NCBI GenBank assembly: GCA_012838995.1
Contig: DUOD01000014.1
Span: 1 to 48,058, forward strand
DNA length: 48,058 nt
Source of the DNA: Clostridiales bacterium
GTDB lineage: Bacteria; Bacillota; Clostridia; DUOD01
Direction: 5' to 3'
Below are positions 1,920 to 44,313 of this stretch, in pieces. Numbering within the stretch: the first letter of the stretch is position 1; each line of letters begins with the position of its first letter. A model generated the notes under the pieces. It searched no databases and was not told the DNA's origin. It saw nothing but the letters and a program-made list of their open reading frames with translations. A program made the translations under genes and the position numbers.

Positions 1920-2014
1920 AATGCTTTGCATTTGCCGCCGGGTAAATGCAATTAAAAAGCATTCGGATTTCATACCGTTAGGCCTTTGAAGGTATGAAAG
2001 TCGGGTGTTTTTTT
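1920..2014 (+). promoter_or_regulatory. structured leader with terminator, probable guanidine-IV (mepA) riboswitch
   Basis: Hairpin 1: AATGCTTT (1920-1927) pairs with AAAGCATT (1956-1963). Nested inside, GCATTT pairs with AAATGC around the loop GCCGCCGGGT (1934-1943). Hairpin 2 spans 1960-2007, with core TCATACC / GGTATGA and a loop containing TTAGGCC, followed by seven Ts: an intrinsic terminator ending only about 15 bases before the MATE start. Hairpin 1 takes up the 5' foot of hairpin 2, and the two loops contain complementary GCC and GGC. Known: guanidine-IV (mepA) riboswitches are two-hairpin transcriptional ON switches found before MATE genes in Clostridia. The class assignment is from memory of that layout, not a covariance match. 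Confidence 0.55.
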
Positions 2015-2028
2015 ATTGTGGAGGGAAT

Positions 2029-3330
2029 ATGGAAAGTAAAAACATTAAAAAAACATTTTGTAAATATGTCTCACTGAACGTCCTTGGAATGATGGGGATA
2101 TCCTGCTATATCCTTGCAGATACATTTTTTGTGGCAAGGGGGATTGGATCAAACGGCTTAGCAGCGCTAAATCTTGCCATTCCAATTTACAGCTTTATTT
2201 ACGGTGTGGGTTTAATGATTGGAATGGGAGGTGCTACCCGGTTTTCCATTTCAAAATCAAAAACGGTATTTACCCAATCCCTATACTTTATTCTGATATT
2301 ATCAGGCGTCTTTTTTGCAACGGGGTTGTTATTGTCAGACCGGCTGGCTTCTTTGCTGGGGACGAATGCAACTACCCATCAAATGACGAGCACCTATTTG
2401 AAAGTGGTGCTGTGCTTTTCACCTGCCTTCATGCTAAACAGTTTGATAACCTGCTTTATACGTAATGATGGAAATCCCAGGCTGGCAATGATTGCTATGT
2501 TGCTGGGCAGCTTTTCAAATATCATTTTGGATTATGTATTTATATTTATATTTGGAATGGGAATGTTTGGGGCAGCCGTTGCTACAGGTATTGCCCCGGC
2601 AATCAGTCTGACGGTATTATCAACACACATGGTTAAAAAGAAAAATAGCTTTCATTTGGTAAGATCCAAGCCGGCGCTATGGGTATTTTGTGATGTTTCA
2701 TCCCTTGGTGTGTATTCCCTTGTAACAGAGCTTTCATCAGGAATTGTTATGATCATTTTTAACAGTATTATCCTGGGGCTTGCCGGCAATCTGGGAGTTG
2801 CTGCATATGGAATAATTGCAAATATTGCCCTTGTAATATTATCAATATTTACGGGTATTGCCCAGGGAATGCAGCCAATTATCAGCAGAAATTATGGTGT
2901 GGGAAGGCATGGCAATATTCGTGAGGTCTTAAAATATGGGATTGTGGTGACCTGTGCTTTTGCCGTGCTGATATATATTATTTCCTTTACTTTTGCAGAG
3001 CCAATAGTCAGTATTTTTAACAAAGAACAAGATTTACGGCTCTCCGGTATGGCCATAGAAGGGCTGCGCATTTATTTTACAGCATTTTTGTTTATCGGAA
3101 TTAATATTTTATTGGCAACCTATTTTGGTTCTGTGGATGAGCCCAAAAATGCTTTTGTTATTTCAATCCTCCGGGGATTTATAGTTACCATTCCCTTGGT
3201 ATTTATACTGTCTGAATTTTTGGGGATGACCGGTGTCTGGATAGCAGTGCCCTTTGCAGAGCTGATTGTTTCAGTTTTTTCTGTGGGCATGCTGACACAA
3301 AAAAAATTAACTCCGGTGGCTAAAAGTTAA
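2029..3330 (+). CDS. MATE-family multidrug efflux transporter, MepA-like
   Basis: A 433-residue membrane protein with about 12 hydrophobic segments in two similar halves, the layout of MATE antiporters that expel cationic drugs using Na+ or H+. The opening (KYVSLNVLGMMG, then ADTFFVARGIG) and the two-fold repeat fit the MepA-type branch. ATG 2029 is chosen because GAGGGAA precedes it; an in-frame GTG at 2005 lies inside the terminator. No partner gene follows. Expression is probably set by the leader at 1920-2014; if that is a guanidine-IV switch, guanidinium or a related compound is a likely inducer and substrate. Confidence 0.85.
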   Translation: MESKNIKKTFCKYVSLNVLGMMGISCYILADTFFVARGIGSNGLAALNLAIPIYSFIYGVGLMIGMGGATRFSISKSKTVFTQSLYFILILSGVFFATGLLLSDRLASLLGTNATTHQMTSTYLKVVLCFSPAFMLNSLITCFIRNDGNPRLAMIAMLLGSFSNIILDYVFIFIFGMGMFGAAVATGIAPAISLTVLSTHMVKKKNSFHLVRSKPALWVFCDVSSLGVYSLVTELSSGIVMIIFNSIILGLAGNLGVAAYGIIANIALVILSIFTGIAQGMQPIISRNYGVGRHGNIREVLKYGIVVTCAFAVLIYIISFTFAEPIVSIFNKEQDLRLSGMAIEGLRIYFTAFLFIGINILLATYFGSVDEPKNAFVISILRGFIVTIPLVFILSEFLGMTGVWIAVPFAELIVSVFSVGMLTQKKLTPVAKS

Positions 3331-3457: not shown

Positions 3458-3835
3458 ATGCTAAGGATTTTAGTGGTCGATGATTCCCTTTTCATGCGAA
3501 AAAAGCTAAAAGGTATTATTGAAAAAGCGGGGCATGTGGTTGTTGATGAGGCTACTAATGGAAATGATGCGTTATATAAGTATATAAAATCACAACCCAA
3601 TTTAGTTATTATGGACATTACCATGCCGGAGGTAGACGGGCTCGAAGGTTTGAAAAAAATAATGAGTGTAGACAATAATGCAAGGGTTATCATGTGTTCT
3701 GCCATAGGCCAAGAACCGTTTATAAAAGAGGCAATTGACAACGGTGCATTGTACTATATAGTAAAACCCTTTAGAAAAGAGCAGGTACTATATACTATCA
3801 ACAGGGTTTTGGAAATGGAAAAGTATAAACAGTAA
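3458..3835 (+). CDS. stand-alone CheY-like response regulator
   Basis: A 125-residue single receiver domain with no output domain. Acid pocket D8-D9, phosphoacceptor D53 (IMDITMPEVDG), switch residue S81 and conserved K103 (VKPF) are all present, so phosphorylation should be possible. Single-domain regulators of this type act in chemotaxis (CheY), in phosphorelays (Spo0F) or as diguanylate-signalling adaptors; no histidine kinase or chemotaxis gene is nearby to decide. The frame is open upstream to 3392, but ATG 3458 starts the domain exactly and has AAAGGA upstream. A strong hairpin follows at 3860-3899. Confidence 0.85.
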   Translation: MLRILVVDDSLFMRKKLKGIIEKAGHVVVDEATNGNDALYKYIKSQPNLVIMDITMPEVDGLEGLKKIMSVDNNARVIMCSAIGQEPFIKEAIDNGALYYIVKPFRKEQVLYTINRVLEMEKYKQ

Positions 3836-12029: not shown

Positions 12030-12105
12030 GGGGCGTTAACTCAGTTGGTAGAGTGTCACCTTGACATGGTGGAAGTCATTGGTTCGAGTCCAATACGCCC
12101 CACCA
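12030..12105 (+). tRNA. tRNA-Val (anticodon GAC)
   Basis: A 76-base cloverleaf. Acceptor GGGGCGT pairs with ACGCCCC, anticodon loop TTGACAT carries GAC, the T loop is GGTTCGAGTCC, and CCA is encoded at 12103-12105. It reads GUC (and GUU by wobble). Confidence 0.95.
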
Positions 12106-12206: not shown

Positions 12207-12280
12207 TGCGGGATGGTGTAATGGTAGCACATATGACTCTGGATCATATAGTCTAGGTTCGAATCCTAGCCCCGCAGCCA
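12207..12280 (+). tRNA. tRNA-Gln (anticodon CTG)
   Basis: A 74-base cloverleaf. Acceptor TGCGGG pairs with CCCGCA, the anticodon stem TATGA/TCATA encloses loop CTCTGGA with anticodon CTG (codon CAG), the T arm is CTAGG-TTCGAAT-CCTAG, and CCA is encoded. The last acceptor pair (A7) is a mismatch with C66. Confidence 0.9.
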
Positions 12281-16022: not shown

Positions 16023-16057
16023 CTTATACAAGTGTATATTAAGAAAAATACTATGAC

Positions 16058-16337
16058 AGGGACCAGTAGGCAATCAATAAATTCCAGAGAGTCATCGTTT
16101 GGTGTGAGATGATATTTATTATTGCTGAACCTCACCCTTGAGTAGTCAACCGAAATCCTATGTTGCGACGTAGGAGAGTAGACTTGAACGGCATCTCCCA
16201 CCGTTAATAAGAGGAGGAGGCATAAATAATAATTTGTGCCTTGCGACGAGGGGGGCGGCGATTGTCGTCCAACAAGAATGGTACCGCGGAAGCACAACCT
16301 TTCGTTTCTTGGGCAAACAGGAAACGGAAGGTTTTTT
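16058..16337 (+). promoter_or_regulatory. T-box leader, leucine (CUC) specifier
   Basis: A complete T-box. Base stem AGGG (16058-16061) pairs with CCCT (16135-16138). The specifier loop has AGTA (16065-16068) opposite GAAC and CTC-A (16127-16134). A long upper stem pairs 16070-16082 with 16114-16125, the AGAGAG bulge is at 16086-16091, and the distal loop GTTTGGTGTGA is closed by TCATC/GATGA. Stem III includes TCCTA/TAGGA at 16156-16175. The T-box core TGGTACCGCGG is at 16279-16289, and the terminator AACCTT...AAGGTT plus Ts at 16296-16337. The U after UGG would pair with A73, the discriminator of tRNA-Leu. Uncharged tRNA-Leu should allow readthrough into the acyl-CoA synthetase gene. Confidence 0.92.
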
Positions 16338-43480: not shown

Positions 43481-44313
43481 AGGAAATACTGAATTTAAAG
43501 GATGTAAAACATGTATATCCCGACAATACCCAGGTTAAAATACACGGCCTAAACTTTTCAGTTAACAGGGGTGAAAGGGTGGTGGTACTGGGACCCAACG
43601 GCGCCGGAAAGACCACTTTGCTGTCCCTGATATTGGGCCTGCTAAAGCCGGTGGAAGGTCATGTTGAGGTGTTTAGATGCAATCCCCTTAATGAATATAA
43701 AAAAATTCGAAGGAAAATAGGGGTGGTATTCCAAAATGTGGATGAGCAGATCATCGGCCCCACTGTGTTTGACGACATAGGCTTTGCCCTAAAAAGCGAG
43801 GGCATCAAAGGAGAACGGCTTAAAGAGAGGGTAGTTAAAATAGCGACTGAAATGGGTATACAACATTTATTATCGAAGTTGCCCCATTATTTAAGCGGTG
43901 GGGAACGGAAAAAGGTTGCCTTGGCGGGTGCCATGGTGCTTATACCCGAGCTGCTTATACTGGATGAGCCTTTCGACGGTCTGGACCCTGCATCCATGAG
44001 GGAGATTATAGATCTGCTCAATAAACTCAACGGCAAGTACAAAACCGCAATGGTAATTACTACCCATAACGTAAATATAGTACCTAAAATAGCAGATACC
44101 GTATACATAATAAATAACGGCAGCTTAATTAAAAAGGGTGGAACCAGGGAGATATTTAGCGATACCGCCCTTTTAGCACAAGCCAACCTCGAACCTCCGA
44201 TATTAGTCCAGCTTTTTAACTGCTTAAAGGAGGCCGGTTTGGATTTGGACATGCCGCTGGATTTAAAGGAAGCGGCGGATACATTAATAAATAAATTTGT
44301 TAGTTGCAAGTAA
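43474..44313 (+). CDS. cbiO: CbiO-type ECF transporter ATPase
   Basis: 279 residues. Walker A GPNGAGKTT at about 38-46, Q-loop VFQNVDEQI, signature LSGGERKK, Walker B LLILDEPFDGLD and switch His (TTHN) are all intact. It powers the CbiMQ metal importer. The start ATG 43474 lies inside cbiQ, with GGATGGTGA upstream. A small terminator follows at 44317-44338, closing the fur-cbiMQO unit. Confidence 0.92.
   Translation: MVEEILNLKDVKHVYPDNTQVKIHGLNFSVNRGERVVVLGPNGAGKTTLLSLILGLLKPVEGHVEVFRCNPLNEYKKIRRKIGVVFQNVDEQIIGPTVFDDIGFALKSEGIKGERLKERVVKIATEMGIQHLLSKLPHYLSGGERKKVALAGAMVLIPELLILDEPFDGLDPASMREIIDLLNKLNGKYKTAMVITTHNVNIVPKIADTVYIINNGSLIKKGGTREIFSDTALLAQANLEPPILVQLFNCLKEAGLDLDMPLDLKEAADTLINKFVSCK

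Follow-up and report, generated by a model that had tools for sequence, protein, structure and literature searches.

The leader of a MATE-family efflux transporter gene in a Clostridiales bacterium (GenBank assembly GCA_012838995.1, contig DUOD01000014.1) is very probably a guanidine-IV riboswitch acting as a transcriptional ON switch, and as such a further member of a class already described. The element lies at positions 1920-2014 of the analysed stretch of 48,058 nucleotides (nt), which as a whole is called the window here; the parts of the leader and the MATE gene described below are on the forward strand. The guanidine-IV (mepA-type) assignment had been put forward in the original prediction, and it was supported by a match to a covariance model built solely from leaders of SMR genes, by downstream genes of the published classes, and by loop positions that, going by published numbering, appear to agree save for one compensated base. 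By analogy with the published members of the family, guanidinium would be the signal and the switch would be turned on by it, while export of guanidinium by the MATE pump is a guess, as it is in the literature. The element thereby points to guanidinium as the likely signal, and to a likely physiological substrate, for what is otherwise a generic MATE transporter; no SMR gene was found in this genome.

Two hairpins, P1 and a terminator hairpin P2, were found at 1927-2014. In the P1 hairpin (1927-1950), bases 1927-1936 pair with 1941-1950 and enclose the loop GCCG at 1937-1940, whose first three bases (1937-1939) are the kissing bases. The upper P2 helix and its loop (1968-1999) consist of 1968-1976 paired with 1991-1999 around a 14-nt loop at 1977-1990 (GTTAGGCCTTTGAA / GUUAGGCCUUUGAA), which contains the kissing bases 1981-1983 and the conserved G1988. 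A mismatch, A1967/G2000, separates this upper helix from a foot of 13 pairs (1954-1966 with 2001-2013), and the 3' strand of the terminator runs into seven T at 2008-2014 (strand and T run together, 2001-2014), ending 14 nt upstream of the ATG at 2029. The fold of 1915-2016 has an energy of -41.6 kcal/mol, compared with a mean of -22.2 kcal/mol (standard deviation 3.1; z -6.3) for shuffled sequences, none of which reached it in 200 trials. Sequence and fold thus bear out the two hairpins of the original prediction, the second of them being a terminator shortly before the MATE start codon. The prediction that the two loops could contact each other also held: GCC at 1937-1939 is complementary to GGC at 1981-1983 (pairs 1937-1983, 1938-1982 and 1939-1981), the loop bases are near-invariant in relatives, and the kissing pair covaries.

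Two covariance models were built. R1, made from 31 MATE leaders, found the window element as the sole match in its own genome, at 76.6 bits with the next match at 19.7 bits. Since the training set of R1 includes the window, that score is circular, and the independent test is R2, which was built from the leaders of eight SMR (SugE-type) genes alone, leaving out the divergent SMR leader L160 and L127, which precedes a gene fragment. R2 scored the window element at 63.2 bits, with an E value of 1e-11 over the whole genome, where the next match has 22.9 bits. With this very strong score the window element falls into one alignable family with the SMR leaders. Both models align to P1 at 1927-1950. 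The SMR protein behind one of the eight leaders, L051, the sole one compared with solved structures, fitted best to 6wk5 (E 6.5e-36; EmrE 2e-11), which is listed as an SMR-family protein and which we take to be Gdx-Clo, a guanidinium exporter.

R1 matched at least 81 of 391 genomes sampled from the class and at least 25 of 398 from the phylum, the two samples overlapping in part and both including the genome of the window; these counts are lower bounds because the scans used stricter filters. For a census of the class scan, 90 aligned matches (alignment A3) were reduced to 86 elements, window included, by removing L128, L132, L134 and L135, which were weak or partial and in the case of L128 and L132 had the first loop out of place. 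The downstream gene was called as the first one to be recognised when the next 1.7 kb were searched with seven reference proteins (tblastn). It encoded PnuC behind 44 elements, MATE behind 25, SMR behind five (L127 being a fragment only) and a pyridoxamine-oxidase-like protein behind five; one GNAT and one ornithine cyclodeaminase gene accounted for two more, and no gene was recognised behind the remaining five. The phylum scan added SMR, MATE, PnuC and oxidase-like genes and one DUF1989 gene, and a few elements there had no recognised gene. SMR, PnuC and MATE are the guanidine-IV transporter classes named by Lenkeit et al. (PMC7736828).

Other genes recur or stand out behind the element. Pyridoxamine-oxidase-like (Pyridox_ox_2) genes were the first to be recognised at L077, L110, L119, L121, L125, L144, L146, L147 and L165, and on the Monoglobus plasmid L137 a gene of this type, nimG-like in the predicted-resistance table of the record, lies 3' of the MATE gene. 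The element at L157:1501-1586 (minus strand) precedes the DUF1989 gene, whose product resembles urea-amidolyase-associated proteins at scores below their cut-offs; such a context would suit guanidine breakdown. At L152:800-878 and L153:1501-1579 (both minus strand) the element has a G-U kissing pair and the start of the next gene appears by eye to be radical-SAM-like (CxxxCxxC), for which we know of no guanidine link.

Conservation was examined most closely for leaders of MATE genes. When species genomes were scanned, 29 loci with related MATE genes came up, and the element was present at 27 (recognised by pattern at 25, and by model at L018 and L036), sometimes several hundred bases 5' of the gene (L017, L021, L026, L028 and L041). 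No element was found at L020, and at L044 there is no DNA upstream of the gene. Thirteen further MATE matches came from relatives: five carry the element by pattern (L003, L005, L006, L007 and L010), and at the other eight it was weak at best by model (L008, 18.8 bits; L009, 16.3 bits; none listed for the rest). R1 had no match at a Limosilactobacillus MATE locus (L139). From 36 pattern matches, four chance matches (two in L009, one at L010:3380 and one at window position 43593) and L030, a near copy of L029, were omitted to give the 31 leaders of alignment A2. In this alignment the loop bases were near-invariant, both sides changed in 14 of the 18 pairs, and 97.4% of the cells were paired, compared with 48.5% after a slide by one column.

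The kissing pairing lies outside the structure given to R1 and R2, the bases themselves being scored by both models. The pair 1937/1983 was standard in all 86 census elements: A-U in 58, G-C in 23, G-U in three and C-G in two. The G-C form of the window is shared by six of the eight SMR leaders used for R2. In the C. botulinum (Cbo) RNA the kissing pair is A29-U72, with C30-G71 adjacent to it and G77 five bases further (PMC11611296); by published position numbers the window has the same kissing-loop spacing, with G and C replacing A and U. The double change A29G-U72C restored the kissing loop in that RNA (PMC11611296), and it corresponds to the G-C form that the window carries at 1937/1983. 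The positions compared for the L. lactis (Lla) RNA are G62, U63, G66, U67, A71 and G72 (PMC7736828), of which G66, U67 and G72 correspond to Cbo G71, U72 and G77. Of the conserved loop-2 bases, G1982 and G1988 of the window match in the published numbering, and Lla U67 is C1983, offset by G1937. The census of kissing pairs can guide mutational tests of the unusual antitermination mechanism of this class.

Several observations weigh against the assignment. Rfam 15 gave no guanidine-IV match in the window at gathering or permissive thresholds, nor any match to the element in 40 related loci, the one hit there being a tRNA. Since these related loci are equally without a match, the Rfam search, which was the covariance check named in the original prediction, cannot decide the matter; R1 and R2 are covariance models for a class that Rfam 15 detected in none of the loci tried. 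Exchanging the adjacent pair (C30G-G71C) failed to restore the kissing loop of the C. botulinum RNA (PMC11611296), and pairing by itself therefore does not explain everything there. U at Lla 67/Cbo 72 is given in print as 97% conserved, which makes the C of the window a departure, compensated by the G in loop 1. The match to the Lla numbering was made by position numbers only and works if one base is skipped between G62 and G66; Lla A71 corresponds to U1987 in the window, where 42 of the 86 elements have A and 36 have U. Finally, the ratio of G-C to A-U kissing pairs is 15:8 before MATE genes but 3:41 before PnuC genes (P 7e-7, with G-U omitted and relatedness uncorrected), and this excess makes a functional sub-type possible. 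That the G-C form marks a guanidine-IV sub-type, with another affinity window or for a substituted guanidine, and that in this lineage the kissing mechanism is giving way to strand exchange by an extended P1, seems rather doubtful when taken together.

In published members of the class, guanidine stabilises the kissing loop and blocks full closure of the terminator, which makes an ON switch (PMC7736828, PMC11611296, PMC12186494). The window holds every part needed for this mechanism. Without ligand, P2 would close over its whole length as an intrinsic terminator and stop transcription at 2008-2014, upstream of the MATE gene. Upon binding of guanidinium, the GCC of loop 1 (1937-1939) would kiss the GGC of loop 2 (1981-1983), and the kissing complex would hinder the lower helix of the terminator (1954-1966 with 2001-2013), allowing read-through into the pump gene. 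In this leader an outer extension of P1 may also compete for the terminator foot. Its 5' strand, AATGCTTT at 1920-1927, is perfectly complementary over 8 bp to AAAGCATT at 1956-1963, which lies inside the 5' foot (1954-1966).

This extension raises the possibility of another mechanism for a switch of this class, one overlapping with the guanidine-IV ON switch proposed here, in which this leader would switch mainly by ordinary strand exchange, with the extended P1 as the antiterminator and the kissing loop doing no more than stabilise it. We regard this as possible yet the less probable course. The eight perfect pairs overlap the terminator foot, and they formed in the fold of the RNA cut at 1999 and were missing from the full-length fold. 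In a post hoc count, eight or more such bases occurred in 0.15% of the sequences made by shuffling the 33 nt upstream and in 0.4% of random 33-mers from the window, and a leader whose MATE protein is 64% identical (L092) has a similar pairing, ATGCTT with AAGCAT. Across the family, however, complementarity at 109 loci showed no excess (mean duplex energy -3.99, compared with -3.88 and a standard deviation of 0.18 for permuted partners), and a fold-based test at 93 loci gave 2.76 foot bases taken, compared with 2.75 when the upstream sequence was shuffled. In MATE leaders the fold-based figures were 4.12 and 3.69; in this test, the cruder of the two, the window itself was not outstanding, with nine foot bases taken against a shuffle mean of 8.6. 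The fold-based test is muddied because members with short linkers share the 3' strand of P1 with the foot. A family-wide antiterminator formed by bases 5' of P1 was rejected, the permutation and shuffle tests (109 and 93 loci) being negative. The claim of the original prediction that hairpin 1 takes the terminator foot is thus upheld for this sequence, by the 8-bp match and the truncated fold, and fails in both tests as a trait of the family.

Rivals that depart from the guanidine-IV class fared less well. It is improbable that the leader is a relative of the Gd4v motif, with a guanidine-IV-like fold, or another variant with shifted ligand, and that the MATE pump exports something else. Published examples of both motifs include some that precede MATE genes (PMC9788692), the window has a G-C kissing pair where the published guanidine-IV alignment has a U that is 97% conserved, and this form is commoner before MATE than before PnuC genes. 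Gd4v, however, is described as carrying an extra hairpin on the terminator, as never occurring with sugE, and as having "never G" at D1 (PMC9788692). The extra hairpin is absent from the window, whose 14-nt loop 2 has no insert, and G-C elements do precede SMR genes, as in six of the eight R2 leaders. Elements that do look Gd4v-like were found before a GNAT gene (L129:1565-1654, minus strand) and before an ornithine cyclodeaminase gene (L130:101-193, plus strand); by eye both seem to carry the extra loop-2 hairpin, and their kissing pair is C-G. Least credible of all is a plain intrinsic terminator or a protein-controlled attenuator, for instance a PyrR-like one, with loops complementary by chance. 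The terminator hairpin is indeed strong, and Rfam gave a weak sub-threshold alignment to PyrR of 18.3 bits, but the gathering score for PyrR is 54 bits, and neither explanation accounts for loop nucleotides that stay nearly constant, or covary, in front of unrelated genes.

A different arrangement of loop and terminator was observed in three relatives, L017:2913-2981, L167:1345-1412 and L133:1640-1728 (the last two on the minus strand). Here loop 2, in its GTAGGCC or TTAGGCC region, supplies the 5' strand of a terminator hairpin of ten pairs, wobble allowed, followed by T, so that kissing and termination would be mutually exclusive by base pairing. L017 and L167 have a second, canonical element upstream as well. 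Five more loci, uncounted here, have eight or nine loop-2 terminator pairs (L029, L030, L086, L113 and L115).

The MATE gene occupies 2029-3330 and encodes 433 amino acids from the ATG at 2029, with a ribosome-binding site, GGAGGG, read from the sequence at 2020-2025. A probable promoter was likewise read at 1871-1900 (TTGCTT at 1871-1876, 18 nt, TGTTACAAT), with an extended -10 element and TACAAT at 1895-1900; a consensus promoter scan had no entry for it. The product matched Pfam MatE at 118.9 bits, above the cut-off, and its nearest solved relative is BH2163 (E 1.4e-47). Against four NCBIfam models it stayed below the cut-off: 219.8 of 445 bits for PRK09575, 209.1 of 900 for FepA, 142 of 147.4 for TIGR00797, and 109.3 of 850 for the MepA multidrug pump model (NF000131, curated cut-off 850 bits). 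Of the "MepA-like MATE" originally predicted, MATE stands; "MepA-like" is loose and, given the scores below the NCBIfam cut-offs, is to be read as "MATE".

A genome search found no SMR gene in the genome of the window and no guanidine-I element; guanidine-II and -III gave no match to Rfam in the window, where they were searched. In the class sample, a strong SMR match (E < 1e-20, a threshold set in this analysis) was found in 23 of the 391 genomes and in five of the 81 that bear the element. In four of these five (G136, G157, G242 and G312) the SMR gene lies directly behind the element, and in the fifth, G108, the element match is just 27 bits. Pfam's own cut-off is reached in 48 of the 391; the genomes that this adds to the five with an element (G020, G103, G202, G216 and G378) have only weak, partial SMR matches of 24 to 27 bits. 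This distribution is consistent with a role for MATE and PnuC in genomes that lack SMR exporters, and is no proof of it. Elsewhere in the window, a gene for a CheY-like single-domain response regulator lies just 3' of the MATE gene (3458-3835), a T-box leader (RF00230, 119 bits) was found at 16044-16312, and tRNA genes lie at 12030-12102 and 12207-12277.

Among known systems, guanidine-I, -II and -III riboswitches share with the window element the presumed ligand and exporter targets, but their folds are unrelated according to the literature. The SugE leader of a Paraclostridium plasmid (L140) looks guanidine-I-like by eye, and R1 had no significant match at this locus (7.1 bits over the leader, 11.8 bits at best elsewhere). 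Gd4v is alike in its general fold, its terminator and the occurrence of MATE genes among its targets; it differs in that loop 2 of the window lacks the extra hairpin and the window's family includes SMR genes. The closest correspondence is with guanidine-IV itself (the GGAM-1 or mepA motif), with which the window element shares two hairpins, kissing loops, a second hairpin that is an intrinsic terminator, the spacing of the G, Y and G that are conserved in loop 2, and SMR, PnuC and MATE as the main downstream classes, and from which it differs in a kissing pair that is G-C instead of A-U and in the 8-bp extension of P1 into the terminator foot.
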